Source: Lycium barbarum
Taxonomy: Eukaryota; Streptophyta; Magnoliopsida; Solanales; Solanaceae
Direction of reading: 5' to 3'
Assembly: GCF_019175385.1 (NCBI RefSeq)
Contig: NC_083348.1
Location: forward strand, 49,932,950 to 49,996,949
DNA: 64,000 bases
Made by a program: the position numbers and the translations under genes. Positions 6,014 to 64,000 of the stretch are shown here, piece after piece. Numbering within the stretch: the stretch's first letter is position 1; each line of letters opens with the position of its first letter. Under the pieces are notes generated by a model. It saw only the letters and a program-made list of their open reading frames with translations, was not told the DNA's origin and made no database searches.

Positions 6014-6198
6014 AGCATAGGATTAGGAAAGGGATATGGAAACCTGATAGCATAGCTCTATCGCACGATCTTAGGACACAAAGAAGGTCATATTTCCTAA
6101 ATGCCCTGTAGCCTCCTGCCTATAAGTGTGGCGCGCTACACACCCATAAACAGGACTCTACTGGACACGGCTCGTAGACAAACTCCTAGGACCGAACT
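6014..6198 (-). other. Element B untranslated leader with DIS-like hairpin
   Basis: The region between PBS and ORF closely resembles the leaders of A (59047-59233), C (11098-11260, 14537-14715) and L (63872-64000). Shared blocks include GTCTAGTAGAGTCTTG-like, ATAAACAGGAGGCTACAGGG-like and ATCGTGCGATAGAG. The hairpin at 6126-6143 (minus) is GTGTG-TAGCGCGC-CACAC, with the self-complementary hexamer GCGCGC in its loop. Confidence 0.7.
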
Positions 6199-9211: not shown

Positions 9212-11082
9212 CCCGCGTCGGTTTCCTCCAGATGATAGCAAATCGGAGATTTCTTTAAAGTGAAATAAGGTGGAAGAAGAGGAGTTTTTTTGCAAATGAG
9301 GTAAGAATTCTCCTCTCCTATATATATTTAAATTCATCCAGGTCACAGTTAAATTGTGAGATGAGAACTACAGAATTAATGATGGAAATTAGATAAGTTG
9401 ATGTTGTTGTCGTGTTGTTGTTGTTACTGCCGATGTGGTTGTTGTTATAATTGTTTGTTGGTATTGTAATTTCGGGCTGAGAATATAAACAGAGGAGATG
9501 CTGCTCGAATTTTGGCAAAATTCTTAAAGGATTTAATTTGGAGGCTTAAGATAAGCATATGACGACAAGCCTAATAATAGTACGAATTGTTTTATATGTA
9601 GATTACGAGACTATGAATGATCTTACGTAGATTTCAAGACAAGAAGTAAGTTGGAAAGTTAAAAGTAAGCTTCCAGGTATGTAAGACAAACATTTCTTCC
9701 TTTGGCATGATTCTTGTTGTTATTCATTCTATAAGTATTCCGTATGATTCCATTCTTAGACGAGTAAGGTCTAAATGTTTCTTGTGATGGCTTATTGATA
9801 TTGTACTCCTATTCTGTTCCGAAGGGAACACCCATAAGGTGCCAAGTTGAGTTGTGTATATGGTTTATTAATGATTTCGAAGAAATGAGTTTTATACTAA
9901 AGGAAACATAAAGTTTGATTTTCAAAACCACTCCGAAGGGGGTGCAAGATTTTACTACTTCATTTCCTTCACGATTTATGTTTACATTCCATAGTATCAT
10001 CCCTTTGTATTGATATGATCATTTATTCTTTGGGTAGGGAAATAAGATGAAATTGAGTAGAATATAAGTAGTAAGAATTTCATAACAATTCTACCATCAA
10101 ACCTGGAAGTATGTCCTCCTAAGTCTAGTGAGATAAAAGTTTGATAACTTCTAATGAAAGACTAAGGCTAATAATTGGATTGTGATGAGTTGATTAGTGA
10201 CTTATGATATGAATTGAAATTGATATTTGTGGATTGAGTTTTTGTTGATATGATGGTGATATTAAGTCGGAAGCGGCTGCCTGAGGGGGCCATCATTATT
10301 ATGCCGGAAGCGGCCGTCCGAAGGGACTATTGTGATACTAGCCTGAAGCGGCTGTTCGAAGGGACCATTTTGTAAATATGTCGGAAATGGCATGTGTGTT
10401 GGATTGCATTATTTACATAAATATTGTTTTGAGACTTCGTGTGCACATTTATGTTTCTTCCAGCGAAGGCTGCAGGTATTGAGTTAGATTGTGATTTCTT
10501 CTCACCTAAGTCAAATTCTGATTGTGATTTGATAGCACCTTACATATTCAGTACATTGTCCGTACTGACGTCCTTTTGCTTGGGCATGTTGCGTTCATGC
10601 CCGCAGCCCCAGATTGTTTGGCAGGTTAAGTGTATAGCTAGGATGCTTGGACGTCAGCTGGGATTAGAAAAGTTCCACCTCATTCTGGAGTTGTGATGAG
10701 TCATGTATAGATATGTATGATTATGGGTATGTCAGGGCCCTGTCGTGACTCATAATGTTCAGTTTACTTCTTAGAGACTTCTGCAGACAGTGTCCTGTGA
10801 CATGTTCGTCGAGATGTCGACAAAGTGATGTCAGTTGAGTCATTTGTGAATTTTAAAGGAGTACGTATTTTAGATGATTTCAATTGGTTTAAAGTACTAA
10901 TTTGATTGAAAGTTTTCATTATCGTTATAAAGATAATGATTTCTATTAGGAAAGGTTTTATGTTCTTAAAAGTTTTTTTTTTTTGAAATAACAGGTTTTT
11001 GATAGAGCGAGTGTTTGAGGGTTCGCTTGACTCTGATGAGAGTCGGGTGCCCATCAATCCCTATCGGGATTTGGGTGTGACA
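9212..11082 (+). repeat. LTR-C1, right piece
   Basis: The remainder of the C-family LTR interrupted by element B, ending ...GTGTGACA next to a PBS. It contains a GAG|GTAAGAATTC donor-like site near 9298, four CGGAAGCGGC-type short repeats (10266-10395), and the three-hairpin module (from 10548, with second hairpin decayed). Confidence 0.88.
10266..10395 (+). repeat. CGGAAGCGGC short tandem repeats in LTR-C
   Basis: Four imperfect units of about 38-42 bp with the core CCGGAAGCGGCTGYCCGAAG. Equivalent blocks lie at about 13799-13925 and 17301-17432 in C2 and C3, so the block is a family feature and not a local slip. Confidence 0.85.
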
Positions 11083-11881
11083 AAGTGGTATCAGAGCAGT
11101 TCGTCCTAGGGGTTGTCTGCAAAGTCTTGTCTAGTAGAGTCTTGTTTATGGTGTGTTGCGCGCCATATTTATAAATAGGAGGCTACAGGGCATTTAGGAT
11201 GGTTACTCTTCTTTCATATCTAAGATCGTGCGATAGAGCCAAGCCATAGGAAATGAGATTCCTTATACTAACCCTTGATTTCAGCAGAAGAACGGTATCG
11301 ACAGAACAAAGTGAGTGATGATATTGGAAGATACAGAGGTAAGTCACTTCGTTGACGCTATGTTATCAGAATATGTATTTATATAATGATGGATTGGTTG
11401 TCATAGAGGTAAGTCTGTGTAAGTACAACAGAGGAATTGATTAAATGTATCTCTTGATGATAAGTTCAGTTATATGTTTGTGAACTAAACAAATTGAATG
11501 AATCAGTACAAAGGTAAGCAACGGTACGAAAGATGCAAGTCGGGTAAGGTAAGAATATTGAGGTATGATTGAAATGTAAAGCTGAAGAAAGAAAGGGAAA
11601 GTAAATAGGAAGGTATAACAGGACAGATCGCTAAAGGATCAGGTACATCTCGAGGTGTAATATATGAGGTAAGTTTCGACATCTTTGTACTTTTACTTGA
11701 AATTGGGAGCCCTGTGGCTGAGATATGTCGTTTATATAAATTAGCCCTGTGAGGTATTGTTGATATTTGCTGCGTGCTGGTTTTGGATAGTAAGAAATAT
11801 GGAGAAAACTCTGCCAAAATTTTGATAAGACTCTATAGACTAGTTTAACATTCGAGGACGAATGTTCATAAGGGGGAAGGA
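11083..11881 (+). other. Family C internal region 1 (PBS, leader, PPT)
   Basis: PBS TGGTATCAGAGC at 11086-11097, then the shared leader with hairpin GTGTG-TTGCGCGC-CATAT (11151-11168; closes with G-U pairs). Several AGGTAAG motifs follow, then the CATTCGAGGACGAATG block, and PPT AAGGGGGAAGGA at 11870-11881. No frame longer than about 100 codons is credible as a gene. Confidence 0.85.
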
Positions 11882-14521
11882 TGTTACATCCCGTACTTTT
11901 GTACGTTGGATTATTCATAAGTTAACCGACATAAGCTCGGAGGACAAGATTATCTTGAGGTTATAAGTATTTATGTAATTCTTAACAAGTGATAAGTAAG
12001 TGTTGTGAAGGTTAGAGGTTAAACAAATTCGGGCTATGGTTTGAGCCGCTCGGATAGGACATTTTTTGGTCATACACAAGTATGCAAATAAAGAGATCGG
12101 AGTATAAAAGGATGAGGTCCCGAAATAATTTAGGACATAACAAGTGTGAACATGGTGATTGAGAATAATATTTGGTGTATATATAAAGAGGCTATGGACT
12201 AGAAGTATACCACATGATTATGATAATGAGTATATGAAGTGTGTTAAAAGTGGTCCATGTTTAAGTGAATTGAGACCAGGAAATTAATTATGGGTGTAAC
12301 TGGTTAAATATGGAGTGTGGCAGAGATAAAGGAATTAAGTAATTATTTAATGGATAAGTAGTGAATTGTTTGATTTCCATGTGGTCCATGGATGAACTGC
12401 ACGGAGTGACTATGCATTTTTATGTAGTGGCGGAACCTTTACAAAGTAGTTATCCAAAGTGAATAACAGGGATGTGGACCCCATGGTCCTAAAAATGATG
12501 ACAATTATTATATCCTTTACTTACAATTTCTCTAAAGCAAAAACGTTAGCAACAACTTTAGAGATTTTCACACTTTAGCTAATTTTTTGGTCTCTTGAGA
12601 AAAAGCAATGAAGCAAAGTTTTATTTTTGGCAGAAACATCTTTATCATGTATATGCAAATTCCCTTATCAACGTGTGAAGAAAGGGCAGCAACGTGACAA
12701 GGGACAAATTTTATTTCACAGAAGAAAAAAACGTGAAGAACGACATAGAGGTTATACCCGCGTCAGTTTCCTCTTGATGATAGCAAATCAGAGATTTCTT
12801 TAAAGTGAAATAAAGTGGACGAAGATGAGTTCTTGGCATATGAGGTAAGAATTCTCCTCTCTTAGATATATTTAAATTCATCCAGGTCACCATTAAATTG
12901 TGAGATGAGAACTACAGAATTAATGTCGGAAATCATATAAGTTGATGTTGTTGTTGTTACTGCCGATTTGGTTTTTGTTATAATTGTTTGTTGGTATTGA
13001 AATTTCGGGCCGAGGATATAAACAGAGGAGATGCTGCCCGAATTTCGGCAAAATTCTTAAAGGATTTAATTTGGATGCTTAAGATAAGCATATGACGACA
13101 AGCCTAATAATAGTATGAATGGTTTTATATGTAGATTACGAGACTATGAATGATCTTACGTAGATTTCAAGACAAGAAATATGTTGGAAAGTGAAAAGTA
13201 AGCTTCCAGGTATGTAAGACAAACCTTCTTCCTTTGGCATGATTCTTGTTGTTATTCATTCTATAAGTACTCCATATGATTCTATTCTTAGACGAGTAAG
13301 GTCTAAATATTTCTTGTGATGTCCTATTGATATTGTACTCCTATTCTGTTCCAAAGGGAACACCCATAAGGTTCCAAGTTGAGTTGTGTATATGGTTCTA
13401 CTAATGATTTCGAGGAAATGAGTTTTATACTAAAGGAAACATAAAGTTTGATTTTCAAAACCACTCTGAAGGGGGTGCGAGATTTTACTACTTCATTTCA
13501 TTTACGATTTATGTTTACGTTCCATTGTATCATCCCATTGTATTGATATGATCATTTATTCTTTGGGTAGGCCAATAAGATGAAATTGAGTTGAATATAA
13601 GTAGTACGAATTTCATATCAATTCTACCATGAAACCCGGAAGTATATCCTCCTAAGTCTAGTGAGATACAAATTTGATAACTTCTAATGAAAGACTAAGG
13701 CTAATAACTGGATTGTGATGAGTTGATTAGTGAATTATCATATTAATTGAAATTGATATTTGTGGATTGAGTTTGTGTTGATATGATAGTGATATTAAGC
13801 CGGAAGCGGCTGCCCGAAGGGGCCATCATTATTATGCCGGAAGCGGTCATCCAAAGGGACTATTGTGATACTAGCCAGAAGCGGTTGTCCGAAGGGATCA
13901 TTCTGTTAACATGTCGGAAGCGACATGTGTGTTGGATTGCATTTTTTACTTAAATATTGTTTTGAGACTTCGTGTGCACACTTATGTTTCTTCCAGCGAA
14001 TGCTGCAGGTATTGAGTTAGATTGTGATTTCTTCTCTCCTAAGTCAAATTATAATTGTGATTTGTTAGCACCTTACATACTCAGTACATTGTCCGTACTG
14101 ACGTCCTTTTGCCTGGGGACGCTGCGTTCATGCCCGCAGCCCCAGATTGTTTAGCTGGTTATGTGTATAGCTAGGATGCTTGGACGTTAGCTGGGATTCG
14201 AAAGTTCCACCTCATTGTGGAGCTGTGCTGAGTCATGTATAGATATGTATGATTATGGGTATGTCAGGGCCCTGTCGTGACTCATAATTTTCAGTTTACT
14301 TCTTAGAGACTTCTGCAGACAGTGTTCTGTGATATGTTTGTCGTGATGTCAACAAAGTGAAGTCAGTTGAGTCATTTGTGGATTTATATTTGGCAAAGTT
14401 TTATGTTCTTAAATGTTTTTTTTTGAAATGACAGATTTTCGTAAAGCGAATGTCTGAGGGTTCGCTCGACTCTGATGAGAGTCGGGTGCCCGTCATGCCC
14501 TATTAGGATTGGGGTGTGACA
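11882..14521 (+). repeat. LTR-C2 (complete)
   Basis: A 2640-bp LTR, TGTTACATCC...GGTGTGACA. It has a donor-like GAG|GTAAGAATTC at 12842-12852, short repeats at 13799-13925 and the three-hairpin module at 14081-14139. Compared with C1 and C3 it lacks about 100 bp near 14385. Both neighbours are C internals, so it serves as 3' LTR of one unit and 5' LTR of the next. Confidence 0.92.
14081..14139 (+). other. Three-hairpin LTR module (LTR-C2)
   Basis: Stems TCAGTAC/GTACTGA (14081-14087, 14095-14101), CGTCC/GGACG (14102-14106, 14117-14121) and CTGCG/CGCAG (14122-14126, 14135-14139) abut each other without gaps. The same module in C3 is at 17586-17644. Confidence 0.8.
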
Positions 14522-15192
14522 AAGTGGTATCAGAGCAGTTTGTCCTAAGGGTTATCTGCAAAGTCGTGTCTAGTAGAGTCTTGTTTATGGTGTGTTGCGC
14601 GTCACATTTATAAACAGGAGGGTACAAGGCATTTAGGGTGGTTATTCTTCTTTCATATCTAAGACCGTGTGATAGAGCTAAGCCATAGGAAATGAGATTC
14701 CTTATACTAACCTTGATTTCAGCAGAAGAACGGTATCGACAGAACAAAGTGAGTAATAATAATGGAAGTTACAAAGGTAAGTCACTTCGTTGAGGCTACA
14801 CTATCAGAATATGTATTTATATGATGATGGATTGGCTGTCATAGAGGTAAGTCAGTGTAAGCACAACAGAGGAATTGATTAACTGCATCTCTTGATGATA
14901 AGTTCAGTTATAAGTTTGTGAGCTAAACAAATTGAATGAATCAGTACAAAGGTAAGCAACGGTACAATAGATGTGTGTCGGGTAAGGTACGAATATTGAG
15001 GTATGATTGAAATGTAAAGCTGAAGAATGAAAGGGAAAGTAAATAGGAAGGTATAACAGGGCAGATCGCTAAAGGATCAGATACATCTCGAGGTGTAATA
15101 TATGAGGTAAGTTTCGATATCTTTGTACTTTTACTTGAAATTGGGAGCCCTGTGTGGCGGAGATATGTCGTATATATATATATATATATATA

Positions 15193-15236
<44 letters not shown>

Positions 15237-15374
15237 CCCTGTGAGGTGTTGTTGGTATTTGCTGCGTGCAGGTTTTGGATAGTAAGAAATATAGAGGAAA
15301 CTCTGCCGAATTTTTTATAAGACTCTATAGACTAGTTTAACATTCGAGGACGAATGTTCTTAAGGGGGGAAGGG
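14522..15374 (+). other. Family C internal region 2 (PBS, leader, PPT)
   Basis: A near copy of internal 1: PBS at 14525-14536, leader hairpin at 14590-14607 with loop GCGCGT (no longer self-complementary), and PPT at 15362-15374. It differs mainly by a (TA)n expansion at about 15168-15232. No coding region is seen. Confidence 0.85.
15168..15232. repeat. (TA)n microsatellite in C internal 2
   Basis: Nearly pure TA repeat, absent as a long tract from internal 1 at the same place (around 11730). Confidence 0.95.
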
Positions 15375-18116
15375 TGTTACATCCCGTTATTTTGTACGTT
15401 GGATTATTCGTAAGTTAACCGACATAAGCTCGGAGGACAAGATTATCTTGAGGTTATAAGTATTTATGTAATTCTTAACAAGTGATAAGTAAGTGTCGTG
15501 AAGGTTAGAGGTTAAACAAATTCGGGCTATGGTTTGAGCCGCTCGGACAGGACATTTTTTGGTTATACACAAGTATGCAAATAAAGAGATCGGAGTATAA
15601 AAGGATGAGGTCCCGAAATAGTATAGGACTTAACAAGTGTGACCATGGTGATTGAGAATAATATTTGGTGTATGTATAAAGAGGCTATGGACTAGAATTA
15701 TACCACATGATTATGATAATGAGTATATGAAGTTTGTTAAAAGTGGTCCATGTTTGAGTGAATTGGGACCAAGAAATTAATTATGGGTGTAATTGGTTAA
15801 ATATGGAGTGTGGCAGAGATAAAGGAATTAAGTAATTATTTAATGGATAAGTAGTGAATTGTTTGATTTCCACGTGGTCCCTGGATGAACTGCACGGAGT
15901 GACTATGCATTTTTATGTAGTGGTAGAAGCTTTACAAAGTAGTTATCCAAATTGAATAAATGGGATGTGGACCCCATGGTCCTTAAAATGATGACAATTA
16001 TTAGATCCTTTATTTACAATTTCTCTAAAGCAAAAACGTTAGCAACAACTTTAGAGATTTTCACAATTAGCTAATTTTTTGGTCTCTTGAGAAAAAGCAA
16101 TGAAGCAAAGTTTTATTGTTGGCAGAAACATCTTTATCATATATATGTAAATTCCCTGATCAACGTGTGAAGAAAGAGCAGCAACGTGACACGGGACAAT
16201 TTCATTTCACCGAAGAAAAAAACGTGAAGAACAACATAGAGGTTATACCGGCGTCGGTTTCCTCCGGATGATAGCAAATCGGAGATTTCTTTACAGTGAA
16301 ATAAGGTGGAAGAAGAGGAGTTCTTGGCATACGAGGTAAGAATTCTCCTCTCCTAGATATATTTAAATTCATCCGGGTCACAGTTAAATTGTGAGATGAG
16401 AACTACAGAATTAATGACGGAAATCAGTTAAGTTGATGTTGTTGTTGTCGCGTTATTGTTGTTACTTCCGATGTGGTTGTTGTAATAAATGTTTGTTGGT
16501 ATTATAATTTCGGGTTGAGGATATAAACAGAAGAGATGCTGCTCGAATTTTGAGAAAATTCTTAAAGGATTTAATTTGGAGGCTTAAGATAAGCATATGA
16601 CGACAAGCGTAGCAATATTATGAATGCTTTTATATGTAGATTAGGAGACTATGAATGATCTTACATAGATTTCAAGACAAGAAGTAAGTTGGAAAGTGAA
16701 AAGTAAGCTTCCAGGTATATAAGGCAAACCTTTCTTCCTTTGGCATGATTCTTATTGTTATTCATTCTATACGTACTCCGTATGATTCCATTCTTAGACG
16801 AGTAAGGTCTAAATGTTTCTTGTGATGGCTTATTGATATTGTACTCCTATTCTGTTCTTAAGGGAACACCCATAAGGTGCCAGGTTGAGTTGTGTATATG
16901 GTTTTACTAATGATTTCGAGGAAATGAGTTTTATACTAAAGGAAACATAAAGTTTGATTTTCAAAACCACTCCGAAGGGGGTGCGAGATTTTACTACTTC
17001 ATTTCATTTACAATTTATGTTTACATTCCATAGTATCATCCCTCTGTATTGATATGATCATTTATTCTTTGGTTAGGGCAATAAGATGAAATTGAGTAGA
17101 ATATAAGTAGTAAGTATTTCATAACAATTCTACCCTCAAACCTGGAAGTATGTCGTCCTAAGTTTAGTGAGATTTAAATTTGATAACTTCTAATGAAAGA
17201 CTAAGGCTAATAACTGGATTGTGATGAGTTGATTAGTGACTTATGATATGAATTGAAATTGATATTGTGGATTGAGTTTGTGTTCATATGATGGTGATAT
17301 TAAGCCGGAAGCGGCTGCCCGAAGGGGCCATCATTATTATGCCGAAAGCGGCCGTCCGAAGGGACTATTGTGATACTAGCCGGAAGCGGCTGTCCAAAGG
17401 GACCATTCTGTAAACATGTCGGAAGCGGCATGTGTGTTGGATTGCATTATTTACTTAAATATTATTTTGAGATTTCGTGTGCACATTTATGTTTCTTCCA
17501 GTGAAGGCTGCAGGTATTGAGTTAGCTTGTGATTTCTTCTCTCCTAAGTCAAATTATGATTGTGATTTGTTAGAACCTTACATACTCAGTACATTGTCCG
17601 TACTGACGTCCTTTTTCCTGGGGACGCTGCGTTCATGGCTGCAGCCCCAGACTGTTTGGCAAGTTAATTGTATAGCTAGGATGCTTGGACGTCAGCTGGG
17701 ATTCGCAAGTTCCACCTCATTCTGGAGATGTGCTGAGTCATGTATAGATATGTATGATTATGGGTATGTCAGGGCCCTGTCGTGACTCATAATGTTCAGT
17801 TTACTTCTTAGAGACTTCTGCAGACAATGTCCTGTGATATGTATGTCGAGATGTCGACAAAGTGATGTTAATTGAGTCATTTGTGAATTTTAAAAGAGTA
17901 TGTATTTTAGATGATTTCAATTGGTTTAAAGTACTTATTTGATTGAAGTTTTCATTATCGTTATAAATATAATGATTTCTATTTGGAAAAGTTTTATGTT
18001 CTTAAATGTTTTTTTTTTGAAATGATAGGTTTTTGATAGAGCGAATGTCTGAGGGTTCGCTCGACTCTGATGAGAGTCGGGTGCCCCTCATGCCCTATCA
18101 GGATTGGGGTGTGACA
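15375..18116 (+). repeat. LTR-C3 (complete, terminal)
   Basis: A 2742-bp LTR, TGTTACATCC...GGTGTGACA, ending the C array. It is followed at 18117 by GGATG and unrelated sequence instead of a PBS, so 18116/18117 is the outer edge. The matching target duplication would lie left of the window and cannot be checked. Confidence 0.9.
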
Positions 18117-40352: not shown

Positions 40353-40877
40353 CATACCACAAAACTATCATGATAAACTTGGAAGGTGCTGAAACTTTCC
40401 CATTCCAATCTTACCTCGAGCCATCATTCTTGCTAATCCATAAATGCATTTCCCCACCTTACGAGAAACTAACCAATGAAGACATGGCGATGATGTAGTC
40501 TGTTGTATTATCTCTTCCATCTCCTAGGGATATCACCTAACTAAAAAGTCTTATTCACAACCCTAACCAATTGAGTCTTCTAGTCATAGCTGAAAGGTGA
40601 ACTTGCTCACTCATCTGTATCACAGTGAAACATCTCATACCATACCGCGGGTCATCATATCAAGCCACTCGCGTGCGAATTCAAGAACACATCCCCACTA
40701 TCATTGAGAGAATAGAATAACAAAGTTCAGATACAAATTTGAAAAAACTCGCACGATAAGAATGGAAATTTCCTAAATTTCCTATAGCCTCTCGAGGATG
40801 GGTACATACGTTAACGTACCAATCAGCAAGACTCTACTACACATTGCTCATGTACTTGTGAGACCGATGAACCTAAG
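40353..40877 (-). other. Element J internal region, piece 4 and leader
   Basis: Its right part (40740-40877) is a decayed form of the leader seen after the PBS of A, B, C and L, including AAGACTCTACTA and CCTATAGCCTC blocks. A hairpin at 40801-40820 (minus GGTAC-GTTAACGTAT-GTACC) occupies the place of the DIS-like hairpin and has its own self-complementary loop hexamer GTTAAC. No ORF is visible. Confidence 0.6.
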
Positions 40878-54126: not shown

Positions 54127-57100
54127 TTACAAACAACACATATGACATACGATTGGCATTGAAATGAAATTAAGCAGGGGTTTAAGGTTACCTGTGGACA
54201 CAGGGAACAGATGAGGATATTTCTTCTTCATTTCTTCCTCGGACTCCCAGGTCATTTCCTCCCTATTATTATTCCGCCACAACACCTTAACAGAGGATAC
54301 ATCCTTGTTCCGGAGCTTTCTTACCTGGCCGTCCAAAATGGCTACGGGCTGCTCCTCGTAAGATAACTGCTCCGTCACCTGAATATCATCCGCAGGAAAT
54401 ATCCTGGAGGGATCACCAATGCATTTGCGGAGCATAGACGCATGGAATACCGGATGTACCGCTTCCAAATCTGATGGCAGATCTAACTCATAGGCGACAT
54501 TTCCAATTTTTCTAATAATCTGATAAGGCCCAATATAACGCGGACTAAGCTTACCCTTTCTGTCGAACCGCATTACGCCTTTCATAGGCGATACCTTTAG
54601 AAATACCCAATCACCAACCTGGAATTCCAAAGGACGACGACGTTTATCAGCGTATGATTTCTGTCGACTCTGGGCTGCCAATAGTCGCTCCCGGATAAGT
54701 TTCACCTTATCAACTGCCTGCTGGATCATATCTGGGACGATTAATTCTGTCTCGCCAATATCAAACCAGCCAATAGGTGACCTGCATTTCCTACCATATA
54801 AAGCCTCGTACGGAGCCATCTGGATGCTGGAATGGTAGCTGTTATTATAAGAAAATTCAATAAATGGCAAGTGATCCTCCCAGCTACCTCTGAAATCAAT
54901 AACGCAGGCCCGCAACATATCTTCAAGTGTCTGGATAGTGCGCTCGGCCTGTCCGTCACTCTGAGGATGGAAAGCTGTGCTCAGGCTCTGCTGAGTCCCT
55001 AATCCTTCTTGAAAAGATCTCCAGAATTTCGCTGTGAACTGAGCACCTCTGTCAGTGATAATAGATATAGGAACTCCATGAAGCTTCACTATTTCTTTAA
55101 TATAAAGCTTGGCATAATCCTCGGCGGAATAAGTAGTTCTGACGGGGAGAAAATGGGCTGATTTTGTCAGCCTATCAACAATAACCCAGATGGAATCATA
55201 CTTCCGTGGAGTGCGAGGAAAACCTGTAATGAAGTCCATATTAATAATCTCCCACTTCCATGTCGGAATTTCCATTTCTTGCAACAGCCCACCCGGTTTC
55301 TGGTGTTCGATTTTGACCTGCTGACAATTTGGGCACTGGGCGACGAATTCTGCGATAGCCCGTTTCATGCCATCCCACCAGTATAGGCATCGGAGATCAT
55401 GGTACATCTTCGTAGACCCAGGATGGACCGAATAGCGAGCATAATGTGCCTCGCTCATAACCTGCTGCCGAAGACCTGCAATATCAGGTACACACAACCT
55501 GCCCCTGAATAATAAAGTCCCGTCCGGAGTGAACTCGAACGGAGTCTTCTCCTTATCATAGGCTGTGTCTCTGTATCGAGCCAAAACAGGATCTTCATAT
55601 TGATGCCGCTTGATATCTTCCTTAATAGATGATTCAGAAACCCCTCGGACAGAAATCCGTGTACCTCCAGATTCGGCCAGACGAACCCCAAGATTAGCCA
55701 ACTGATGAAGATCACGCACTATCTCTCTCCTGTCTGGCTGTAAATCTGCCAAGCTGCCCATAAATTTCTGGCTAAGCGCATCTGCCACAACATTAGCCTT
55801 CCCCGGATGATACAGAATATCCACATCATAGTCCTTCAGGAGCTCCAGCCACCTCCTCTGCCGCAAATTAAGCTCTTTCTGCTTGAAAATATACTGGAGA
55901 CTCTTATGATCTGTATAGATATCAACATGAACGCCATATAAATAATGTCTCCATATCTTCAGGGCATGGATCACCGCTGCAAGCTCCAGATCGTGAGTAG
56001 GGTAATTCTTTTCATGCTTTTTCAATTGCCGGGAAACATAAGCTATAACTCTGCCGTGCTGCATCAATACACAGCCCAATCCCACGCCAGAAGCGTCACA
56101 ATAAATAACATATCCATCGGGTCCCTCTGGAAGAGTCAGAACTGGGGCTGTAGTCAGCTTCTCTTTCAGCAACTGGAAGCTTCGTTCACAAGCATCAGTC
56201 CACTGGAACTTGGCTCCCTTCTGAGTTAGCCTTGTCAAAGGCGCTGAAATCGAAGCAAACTTTTCCACATATCTTCTGTAATAGCCAGCTAACCCCAGGA
56301 AACTACGTACCTCTGTGGGCGTCGTGGGTCTGGGCCAATTTTTCACGGCCTCAATCTTCTGTGTATCCACCCGGACACCATCAGCTGCAATAATATGCCC
56401 CAGGAATGCCACTGAAGCTAGCCAGAATTCACATTTAGAAAATTTTGCATATAATTTCTGATGCCGAAGTACCCCTAATACCGCTCTCAGATGATCTGCG
56501 TGCTCTGCCTCGGACTGAGAATAAACCAGGATATCATCGATAAATACAATTACGAACATGTCTAAGAACGGCCTGAATACCCGGTTCATTAAATCCATGA
56601 ATACCGCAGGAGCATTAGTCAGCCCAAAAGACATAACTCTGAATTCATAATGCCCATATCTGGTCCGGAATGCTGTCTTAGGAATATCGGCCTCCCGTAC
56701 CCGTACCTGATGATAGCCAGACCGAAGATCTATCTTTGAAAAATACTTGGCGCCCTGCAACTGATCAAACAAATCGTCAATTCTGGGGAGGGGGTATTTA
56801 TTCTTTATGGTTACCTTATTCAGCTGTCGATAATCAATACACATACGCAACGACCCGTCTTTCTTACGCACAAATAATACCGGGGCTCCCCAAGGCGAAG
56901 TACTGGGTCTAATGAAGCCTTTTTCTAACAGATCCTTCAACTGCTCTTTCAGTTCTTTCAATTCTGCCGGTGCCATTCTGTACGGGGGAATAGATATCGG
57001 CTGAGTATCTGGAAGCAAATCAATAGTAAAATCTATCTCCCGCTCTGGAGGAAGTCCTGGAAGCTCTTCTGGGAACACATCTGGAAATTCATTAACCACG

Positions 57101-59046
57101 GGAACTGACTGAAAAGTCGGCGTTTCTGCTGTCAAGTCTTGTACCCGAACCAGATGATAAAAATAACCCTTTCTGATCATTTTCTTCGCCTTAAGGTATG
57201 AAATAAACTTACCTTTCAGCGATGCTGTATTACCGGCCCATTCTATAACTGGCTCCCCGGGAAACTGGAAACGAACTACCTTATTTTGGCAGTCAACATT
57301 AGCATAACAGGAGGCTAGCCAGTCCATTCCCATAATAACATCGAACTCGACCATATCTAACTCCACCAGATCTGCCTTAGTGTCACGGCCACATACAATT
57401 ACAGAACAGTTCTTATATACATGTTTTGCTACAATAAAGTCCCCAATCGGTGTGGCTACCTCAAACGGCTCTATAGGTTCAGATGTTATACCAATTTTAC
57501 AAGCAACCAGAGGCGAAATATATGACAAAGTTGAACCTGGATCAATAAATGCATACACAGACCGAGAGAAAACCAATAATGTACCTGTAACGACATTAGG
57601 CGATGCCTCCTGATCCTGGCGGCTGGACAGAGCATAGATGCGGTTCGAAGGACCACTAGTACTAGAAGCTCCACCACGGCCTCTGCCGTGACCCGCTGGT
57701 GCTGAAGTACCCGGCCCCGTAGGGCGCATAGCCACAGATGAAGATGAAGACCCGGCGGCTGATCCGGTAGGCTGCGCTGCACCACCCGAACTACCCTTAT
57801 ACGGGCAATCTCTCACAGAATGGCCCTGACGGCCACAAGAAAAACATGCACCGGTGGCTCTGTAGCACTCTCCCGGATGGTATCTGCCACAATAAGAACA
57901 CTGAGGCCTGGGTGGCCTCGTCTGACCAGAACCCCTATCTGTCCGCGAACCTGAAGCCCTGGAGCTCTGACCTGCTCCTGAATAACCTGGGCTATCAAAT
58001 CTGCGACCTGTAGGCTGTGGAGGTGCGCTCTGTGCCGGCTGGGATAGATGTCTGCTAGGCTGCTGCGGCTGCTGAGGCTGCCTGCCCCGAAAATCTCCAG
58101 AATACCCAGATGATCTGGCCCTCTTGGGCTGTCTCCGATCCTGGCTCCTATCAGGCTGACGCTCCCTATGCCGGTCCTCCATGCCCTGGGCGTGGGCCTG
58201 AATCCGGGCAATATCCATGCCGGGCTGAGCAGCCAATACCAAACAGCTGTCGACAAAATAACGGTCCAGCCCCATAATATACCTGTGCATCCTGTCAGCC
58301 ATAGTAGCTACCACAGCAGGTGCGTATCGGGCCAATGAGTCGAACTCCATACTGTACTCTCGAACACTGCGACCCCTCTGTCTCAGCAATAAGAATCTGT
58401 CAGCCTTGGCCCGCCGTAACTCCGGAGGCAGAAAATGACTGAGAAAAGCCTGAGAAAAATCATCCCAAACTGCTGGGGGAGCGCCGTCGCCTCTGGATAA
58501 CTCCCATGACTCGTACCAATTTGCCGCTACATCATACAACCGGTACGAAGCCAATGTGACTGACTCCGTCGCTGAAGCATTAATAAAATGTAAGGTTCGC
58601 CGCATCTTCCTGATAAACTCCTCAGGATCCTCCTCGGGCTTTGTCCCGAAGAACTCTGGAGGGCCACAAGTCAAGAACTCACGAGCTCTCGAACTGTCAC
58701 GCCTATATGCTCGGTCACCTCCCAATCCGTGCCCCTGAACCTGTCCCGCCACAAGTCTGGTCAATAGCTGGACTGCCTCTCTCATAGTCTGATCCTCAGT
58801 CCCTGGCCGTGGAGCTGGAGGCTCAGGTACTGGAATCTCGGGAGCTGGCGGTGGAGCCACCCCTCGACCTGCAGCTGCTGCTGCTCCAATCTCCTCTACG
58901 TGTGGCGGTGTGGAAGAGCCCTCTGCCGGGGGCAAAACATCAGGAGCAATATGAGCATGGGCCCTGGTAACCCTCTGGGCCCGACTAGTCTCTCCCACAG
59001 CTGCTGCCTTGGCCTTTTGGGCCGCTGTCGCCTTTTTTGGAGGCAT
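54127..59046 (-). CDS. gag-pol: Gag-Pol polyprotein of a Tekay/Del-type chromovirus
   Basis: 1639 codons, uninterrupted. It makes the capsid and all enzymes for reverse transcription and integration of element A. Domains: basic Ala/Lys/Pro-rich N terminus; Gag capsid core (about 120-300); a short CCHC-like motif (383-394) and a full zinc knuckle [14 protein letters not shown] (401-414); aspartic protease with D502 in DPGS; reverse transcriptase (about 690-870) with FIDD at 835-838; RNase H with D984, E1021, D1046 and D1089; integrase with H1201/H1208/C1238/C1241 zinc site and catalytic D1271, D1332 and E1368 (D-D35-E); a GPY motif (1506-1508); and a C-terminal chromodomain (about 1563-1613) that would guide insertion to heterochromatin. 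Length and order match intact family members. The first ATG after the leader is used. All catalytic residues are present, so it is probably functional. Confidence 0.97.
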
Positions 59047-59233
59047 AACTGCAAATGTAACAATTCGTTAGGGAGGAATCATCCTGATAACACAGCTCTA
59101 TCGCACGATCTAAGACAGAAAGAAGGGTAGTATCCTAAATGCCCTGTAGCCTCCTGTTTATAGGTGTGGTGCACGACACACCGATAAACAAGACTCTACT
59201 ATACACGGTCTGTAGACATTCCGAGGACGAACC
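59047..59233 (-). other. Element A leader with DIS-like hairpin
   Basis: The 187-bp leader between PBS and gag. It shares blocks with leaders of B, C, L and J. The hairpin at 59163-59182 reads, in RNA sense, GGTGTG-TCGTGCAC-CACACC; the loop holds the self-complementary hexamer GTGCAC. It is likely part of the packaging region. Confidence 0.72.
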
Positions 59234-59245
59234 GCTCTGATACCA
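59234..59245 (-). other. Primer binding site (initiator tRNA-Met), element A
   Basis: Minus strand TGGTATCAGAGC, four bases (AAAG) from the 5' LTR edge at 59250. Confidence 0.95.
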
Positions 59246-63855: not shown

Positions 63856-64000
63856 AAAGTGGTATCAGAGCAGTTCAGTCCTAGGGTGTGTCTACGAGCC
63901 GTGTCTAGTAGAGTCTTGGTTATGGGTGTGTTGCGCGCCACACTTATAAACAAGAAGCTGCGGACATTTTAGGAATAAATGACCTTCTTTCTTCATAAGA
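63856..64000 (+). other. Element L PBS and leader (cut by window end)
   Basis: PBS TGGTATCAGAGC at 63860-63871, then the shared leader. The hairpin at 63926-63943 is GTGTG-TTGCGCGC-CACAC with loop hexamer GCGCGC. Coding parts, if any, lie beyond the window. Confidence 0.88.

Follow-up and report, generated by a model that had tools for sequence, protein, structure and literature searches.

The question raised by this locus is what purpose is served by a hairpin with a self-complementary loop that stands just after the primer-binding site (PBS) in several related plant retrotransposons. The window, meaning the whole stretch of DNA that was analyzed, is 64,000 nt of Lycium barbarum (GCF_019175385.1, NC_083348.1:49,932,950-49,996,949, forward strand); the host assembly comprises 1.67 Gb in 164 contigs. 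A first-pass annotation described such hairpins in five families, A, B, C1, L, and J, and likened them to retroviral dimer-initiation sites (DIS). Re-reading of the sequence confirms the coordinates and strands of all five. A PBS scan of the window yields these five and a sixth related leader of the same type, C2 (PBS at 14525, plus strand), which the list of five had omitted; PBS-like matches at -47814 and +18656 were set aside. In all six, as would be expected of a DIS, the stem-loop stands in the 5' leader and close to the PBS. Its base lies 34-40 nt past the PBS end, or 46-52 nt from the PBS start, and the spacing is similar in the other leaders read beyond the window.

Element A is a Ty3/gypsy element with gag, aspartyl protease, reverse transcriptase, RNase H, and integrase in that order in one frame. 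This open frame of 1,646 codons (54127..59067, minus strand) was scanned against Pfam in four separate pieces, and the coding analysis covers element A. Retrotrans_gag, RVP_2, RVT_1, RT_RNaseH, and Integrase_H2C2 score above the Pfam cut-off, and rve (32.4 against 32.6), Ty3_capsid (28.9 against 29.1), and zf-CCHC (20.4 against 20.8) fall just under their curated cut-offs. A weak chromodomain match at the C-terminus (Chromo, E 2.3e-5) reaches 24.6 bits against a cut-off of 25.1. The reverse transcriptase/RNase H piece returned no relative from the viral contig collection. Elsewhere in the window (9286-17952), a stretch of at least 1.6 kb occurs three times at a spacing of ~3.5 kb, with an internal region between each copy and the next. 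The order is LTR-internal-LTR-internal-LTR, leaders C1 and C2 lie within it, and the elements, which are short and probably non-autonomous, apparently form a tandem array.

Folding of the leaders shows that the short hairpin of the first-pass annotation, accurate as far as it went, is the tip of a larger structure of 54 nt and 20 pairs. From the base upward, GUAG is followed by a 2x2 internal loop (AG/GG), a run of ten pairs, a 1x1 mismatch, and a further six pairs, and the stem is closed by an 8-nt loop whose positions 3-8 hold the palindrome register. In element A, the whole hairpin occupies 59146..59199 on the minus strand, with a PBS, TGGTATCAGAGC, at 59234..59245. Its 5' arm reads GTAG, the AG.GG internal loop, TCTTGTTTAT, the 1x1 mismatch, and GGTGTG, and its loop TCGTGCAC (59169-59176) contains the palindrome GTGCAC (59169-59174). 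The hairpin of B (6108..6161, minus strand) has the loop TAGCGCGC with the palindrome GCGCGC. C1 (11134..11186, plus strand), whose 5' arm is one base shorter, and L (63908..63961, plus strand), an element interrupted by the window end, share the loop TTGCGCGC. The same hairpin in C2 (14573..14625, plus strand) carries the loop TTGCGCGT, which has no palindrome in register and is self-complementary solely when G-U pairs are allowed. The decayed element J (40784..40837, minus strand) keeps the architecture, with 18 of 20 pairs and the loop TTAACGTA in the homologous register. Rfam gave no match at gathering threshold across the window.

A short hairpin of this kind is not rare by chance. In shuffled sequence, the frequency per 100 nt on each strand is about 0.16 for a 5-bp stem closing a 7-10-nt loop with a 6-nt palindrome, and 0.065 if the stem has 6 bp. 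A single short hairpin is therefore unremarkable, and the case must rest on relatives. The full structure is rarer: equally or more stable 54-mers make up, of all those in the window, 0.08% (B), 0.24% (A), 0.47% (L), 1.5% (J), 2.1% (C1), and 3.2% (C2). The frequency of the short motif favors the view that the hairpin arose by chance and was kept merely because the leaders are related. That view has to contend with a twenty-pair stem that has changed on both sides and with the turnover of the palindromes, both described below, and we regard it as scarcely credible.

Across the six leaders of the window, 96.7% of pair cells are paired, compared with 31-56% when the arms are slid, and there are three both-side changes, all of them in J; depending on the measure, the observed value is equaled in 6 to 36 of 500 shuffles. 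J is identical to A at 32 of 54 positions, yet retains its 18 stem pairs. This retention has a P of 0.002-0.024 against changes at random stem positions, and a non-significant P of 0.08-0.57 once the changed positions are fixed; taken alone, the J stem would count as moderate support. J had also been offered as an example of a palindromic loop, and there it serves poorly. Its homologous register is GGTACG-TTAACGTA-TGTACC, an 8-nt loop without a 6-nt palindrome, and GTTAAC is freed solely by opening of the G-U pair that closes it. A perfect 12-nt palindrome is nevertheless present in J, TACGTTAACGTA (40807-40818), that spans loop and stem and could provide a longer dimer duplex in place of a loop kiss.

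Close copies of A add little here. Among 30 of them, the hairpin has 1 variable site in 54 and the remaining leader 5 in 152, too little variation to discriminate between the two; the single variable hairpin site is base 2 of the loop and so lies outside the palindrome. The 40 A-type leaders scored from 1,864 candidates are 99-100% identical.

A wider sample was drawn from twenty 10-kb stretches of the host genome at round coordinates. Every leader in the window and these stretches with a PBS and GTAGAGTCTTG, each at no more than two mismatches, was taken, giving 15 leaders: the six of the window and nine from the stretches. Two more, L066 and L077, failed this rule and were added by eye as two further lineages, and PBS-like matches in L068 (at 7450) and L077 (at 8246) were set aside. 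In the 15 leaders, aligned by sequence, 94.3% of 300 pair cells are paired, against 32-57% when slid, and 12 cells have both-side changes. The claim that the stem keeps pairing as its sequence changes thus holds over a larger set. None of 500 shuffles matches either the paired share or the both-side count, figures that are not probabilities because the shuffle control, for stem and loop alike, ignores the relatedness of the leaders. The result is weaker on counts of pairs or of pair types, which 20 and 12 of the 500 shuffles reach, and the stem slid by +2 likewise has 6 pairs with both-side changes. Folded singly, C1 and L063 have a minimum-energy apical stem that is shifted and buries part of the loop, and the minimum-energy fold of L066 pairs inside its own loop.

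The loops of the same 15 leaders change their letters and largely stay self-complementary. Self-pairs make up 88.9%, against 66.6 (sd 4.0) when shuffled, and no shuffle of 500 is as high; the counts of pairs or of types are equaled in 176 and 202 of 500. Loop pair 1-6 is GC in 10 leaders, GU in 2, and otherwise in 3; pair 2-5 is CG in 9, AU in 3, UA in 2, and otherwise in 1; and pair 3-4 is GC in 10, CG in 2, GU in 2, and otherwise in 1. Among the nine extra leaders, L063 and L064 have GCGCGC, the L071 leader at +4472 has GTGCAC, L068 has GCCGGC, and L080 has GAGCTC. Four are non-palindromic in register, namely the L071 leader at +848 (GCGTGC), L073 (CCGTGC), L079 (GAGCTT), and L075; these, with C2 and J, leave a perfect palindrome in 9 of 15. 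The two leaders outside the GTAGAGTC group have loops of other lengths, 7 nt in L066 (TGGCGCC, palindrome GGCGCC) and 9 nt in L077 (CTTGATCAT, palindrome TGATCA). With GACGTC, found in the genome-wide counts below, the palindromes seen in these loops are GTGCAC, GCGCGC, GCCGGC, GGCGCC, GAGCTC, GACGTC, and TGATCA.

Ordinary loops rarely look like this. The control comprised 1,190 apical loops, each 7-10 nt long and borne on a stem of at least 10 pairs, from the same 264 kb of window and stretches, with 26 AT-only loops excluded and the leaders' own hairpins included on both strands. A 6-nt palindrome occurs anywhere in 69 of these loops and in the last six bases of 23. For comparison, the pattern PBS-N25-55-GTAGAGTC-N20-50-GGCTA occurs at 16,578 places in the 1.67-Gb genome, and its reversed control at no place genome-wide. 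The first 44 of these leaders in contig order, all within the first 21 Mb of contig C1, were examined; they are unselected by loop, and the exact GTAGAGTC and GGCTA flanks favor undecayed copies. Of these, 36 are palindromic in register, 6 are non-palindromic, and 2 are undecided, an excess over the control loops. The palindromes are GTGCAC in 20, GCGCGC in 11, GAGCTC in 2, and GGCGCC in 1 (34 in all), plus two of GACGTC at contig C1:16707304 and C1:20384610, identified as such because both places recur in a query that fixed four of the palindrome bases p1 to p6 (p1=G, p2=A, p5=T, and p6=C). The proposal that the loop changes while remaining palindromic therefore stands for most copies and several lineages (36 of 44, 9 of 15), with C2 and J as exceptions.

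A genome-wide count points the same way for one pair of positions. With G at p1, A at p2, and C at p6, position p5 is T at 2,249 places and another base at 70, so 97.0% (2,249 of 2,319) keep the pair, although these places are not independent cases because copies within a family are related, and here too the exact flanks favor undecayed copies. The count covers the p2=A class, leaves p3 and p4 aside, and that class holds at least two different palindromes, GAGCTC and GACGTC.

Such turnover could also be found in a hairpin that binds Gag for packaging or has another regulatory role, with selection on the stem and palindromes that persist only by descent from a few families and by CpG decay. The leaders are homologous, the stem is conserved beneath non-palindromic loops (L073 and the L071 leader at +848), and a perfect in-register palindrome is missing from 6 of the 15; these points suit that explanation. 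Arithmetic on the sequences suits it as well: just two CpG deaminations turn GCGCGC into GTGCAC, and of the four double outcomes two are palindromic. The contrast between these two loops, the main one in the first-pass annotation, is present and is weak evidence by itself, since CpG decay yields it. The case is carried instead by GAGCTC, GACGTC, GGCGCC, GCCGGC, and TGATCA, all palindromes that CpG deamination cannot reach from GCGCGC. A rough binomial at 5.8% per loop gives 5e-5 for four of five arm lineages and 7e-7 for five of five, with lineages chosen post hoc, of which I and III also include non-palindromic members. The GACGTC string in that calculation came from a query fixing four of six bases; the two GACGTC leaders among the 44 were drawn independently of that query. 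On balance, a regulatory hairpin of this kind is rather unlikely.

What the leaders of several lineages have in common is a conserved stem with changes on both sides, its place after the PBS, and, in most copies, a self-complementary loop. Letters that change under retained self-complementarity point to selection for loop-loop self-pairing, and pairing with the same loop on another RNA would be the simplest account of palindrome turnover. The best reading, which we consider likely, is that a group of plant Ty3/gypsy retrotransposons uses this hairpin as its dimer-initiation site. In this model, a long stem 34-40 nt past the PBS would present a loop of 7-9 nt, the core of which is 6 nt long and self-complementary. 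Two genomic RNAs, from one element or from compatible ones, would join loop to loop in a kissing complex, and Gag would then take up the two-RNA complex. The kissing pair may turn into a longer duplex, perhaps aided by the internal loop near the base. We infer that loops on separate molecules pair, that packaging begins with this pairing, and that the loop sequence influences which RNAs become partners.

Self duplexes of the loops are predicted at -8.5 (A), -11.3 (B), -10.9 (C1), -10.9 (L), -8.5 (C2), and -3.7 kcal/mol (J). Among shuffles of each loop's own letters, 4.8-9.8% pair as strongly for A, B, C1, C2, and L, and 20% for J, so that the predicted self-pairing is only moderately unusual.

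The loop might alternatively pair within its own molecule. A second conserved motif, AGATCGTGCGATAGAGC in A (59095..59111, minus strand), lies ~35 nt downstream of the hairpin and recurs in B and C1, with two changes in C2, and partially in J; in L it would fall beyond the window end. In L066, CTCTA and TAGAG stand on either side of the second motif, which could therefore fold into a separate hairpin. A pseudoknot between the loop and this downstream motif (AUCGUGCGAU) would make self-complementarity a by-product, and the loops of A, B, C1, and C2 can indeed form 5-7 pairs with GUGCG (GUGUG in C2) at -6.8 to -8.9 kcal/mol. Self-pairing is nevertheless predicted to be stronger in all five leaders with the motif in view, where pairing to the motif reaches -7.0 (A), -7.5 (B), -8.9 (C1), -6.8 (C2), and -2.6 kcal/mol (J). 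Moreover, the motif of L066 is nearly unchanged (GATCGTGCAA) although its loop is GGCGCC. These results make the pseudoknot improbable.

Less probable still is a role in translation. Plant pararetroviruses have ribosome-shunt structures, in which light a short ORF ending just before the stem deserves attention: by eye, an ATG...TAG frame ends at the hairpin base in A (59199-59219, minus strand) and J (40837-40851, minus strand). This reading fails because B, C1, C2, and L have no ATG at that place, so the arrangement is not kept, and it gives no reason for palindromic loops. Extended pairing with the primer tRNA was also considered and rejected; the 38 nt after the PBS are complementary to the initiator tRNA no better than shuffled sequence in the six leaders (P 0.08-0.84). 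Pattern searches of viral and genome contig collections for relatives outside the host genome returned 3, 4, 1, and 24 stretches, and none for one pattern. By eye and motif scan, these were judged to be chance matches in bacterial or viral DNA; two of the stretches, L015 and L017, contain zinc-finger-like motif matches.

A comparison of the putative plant DIS with that of HIV-1 is instructive. The HIV-1 DIS is described as mostly GCGCGC, GUGCAC, or GUGCGC, with two critical central G-C pairs (PMC5874298), which bears out the two HIV-1 palindromes named by the first-pass annotation; GCGCGC and GUGCAC are also the commonest two among these plant leaders. Both systems, as described, have a leader hairpin whose apical loop displays a 6-nt GC-rich palindrome (PMC5874298, PMC516450), and both place it after the PBS, as with psi/SL1 (PMC3902901). 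Both also interrupt the stem with an internal loop, of which HIV-1 loop B is reported to matter for the dimer (PMC5874298, PMC516450). The main plant palindromes center on G-C/C-G as in HIV-1, whereas J and TGATCA do not. Unlike HIV-1, the plant internal loop is a symmetrical 2x2 AG/GG, and the 8-nt loop puts the palindrome at its 3' edge with no 3' flanking base. Flanking purines are reported to matter in the HIV-1 loop (PMC5874298); the plant loops do not have them on both sides, and the 5' flank of the palindromic ones is TT, TC, TA, AA, or AT. Finally, several palindromes coexist in one plant genome, and plant dimerization is a prediction from sequence.

Among retrotransposons, yeast Ty3, of the same Ty3/gypsy superfamily, is one close parallel. 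It dimerizes in vitro through CUGCAG in an apical hairpin, and deletion abolishes dimerization (PMC11381356). Its DS/PAL6 thus shares with the plant hairpin, compared by description, a short palindrome in the apical part. The Ty3 DS lies at nt 391-396, among palindromes that the source assigns to GAG, in contrast to the plant position in the leader right after the PBS (PMC11381356). Ty1 and the barley elements BARE1 and BARE2 belong to Ty1/copia. In Ty1, loop-loop pairing of SL1a with SL3a near the 5' end is proposed to start dimerization and packaging (PMC5454406; review PMC4974528), and stem and loop compensations have been tested (PMC5454406). Rather than a single palindromic loop, Ty1 uses two different complementary 7-nt motifs (PMC5454406). 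BARE2, a plant LTR retrotransposon like those studied here, is mentioned as having conserved dimerization and packaging signals, in a description of BARE1/BARE2 that includes no hairpin or palindrome (PMC3735527).

Words that start with "dimer" are absent from a 2025 review on how host factors act in plant LTR elements (PMC12786077) and from a study of Sirevirus non-coding motifs (PMC2829016). A study of quadruplexes in plant elements names dimerization, in the part available, for HIV-1 and as a possibility (PMC3902901). Leader sequence strings sought as text in the literature gave unrelated matches only. Judged by titles and abstract openings, with few subscription papers covered, the literature returned no account of plant Ty3/gypsy elements with a kissing-loop hairpin. 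The palindromic-loop DIS is known; what would be new is the plant Ty3/gypsy case and the unusual variety of natural loop codes that a single genome contains.

Whether this diversity sorts RNAs into co-packaging classes, with A and J each apart from B, C, and L, is answered in part by the predicted energies. J pairs with the other loops at -1.8 to -3.2 kcal/mol and is the sole clearly incompatible loop. A, on the other hand, is predicted to pair with B at -7.6 kcal/mol, and with the B, C, and L loops at -7.6 to -8.6 kcal/mol through G-U pairs, making a sharp division between A and B/C/L doubtful.

A broader suggestion, which we offer tentatively and would not expect to hold in full, is that one conserved stem carries interchangeable kissing-loop codes (GTGCAC, GCGCGC, GCCGGC, GGCGCC, GAGCTC, GACGTC, and others) in plant Ty3/gypsy elements of one nucleus. 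Code switching, mostly from palindrome to palindrome, might then change the partners in co-packaging and recombination and help to separate or fuse families, in a manner similar to mating types. Since a single genome offers the hairpin in thousands of copies and with several natural codes, control of co-packaging by the loop code is directly testable, as is whether non-autonomous copies ride along through a shared code. These leaders would also supply naturally evolved kissing loops to set beside those of HIV-1, in which few palindromes prevail.
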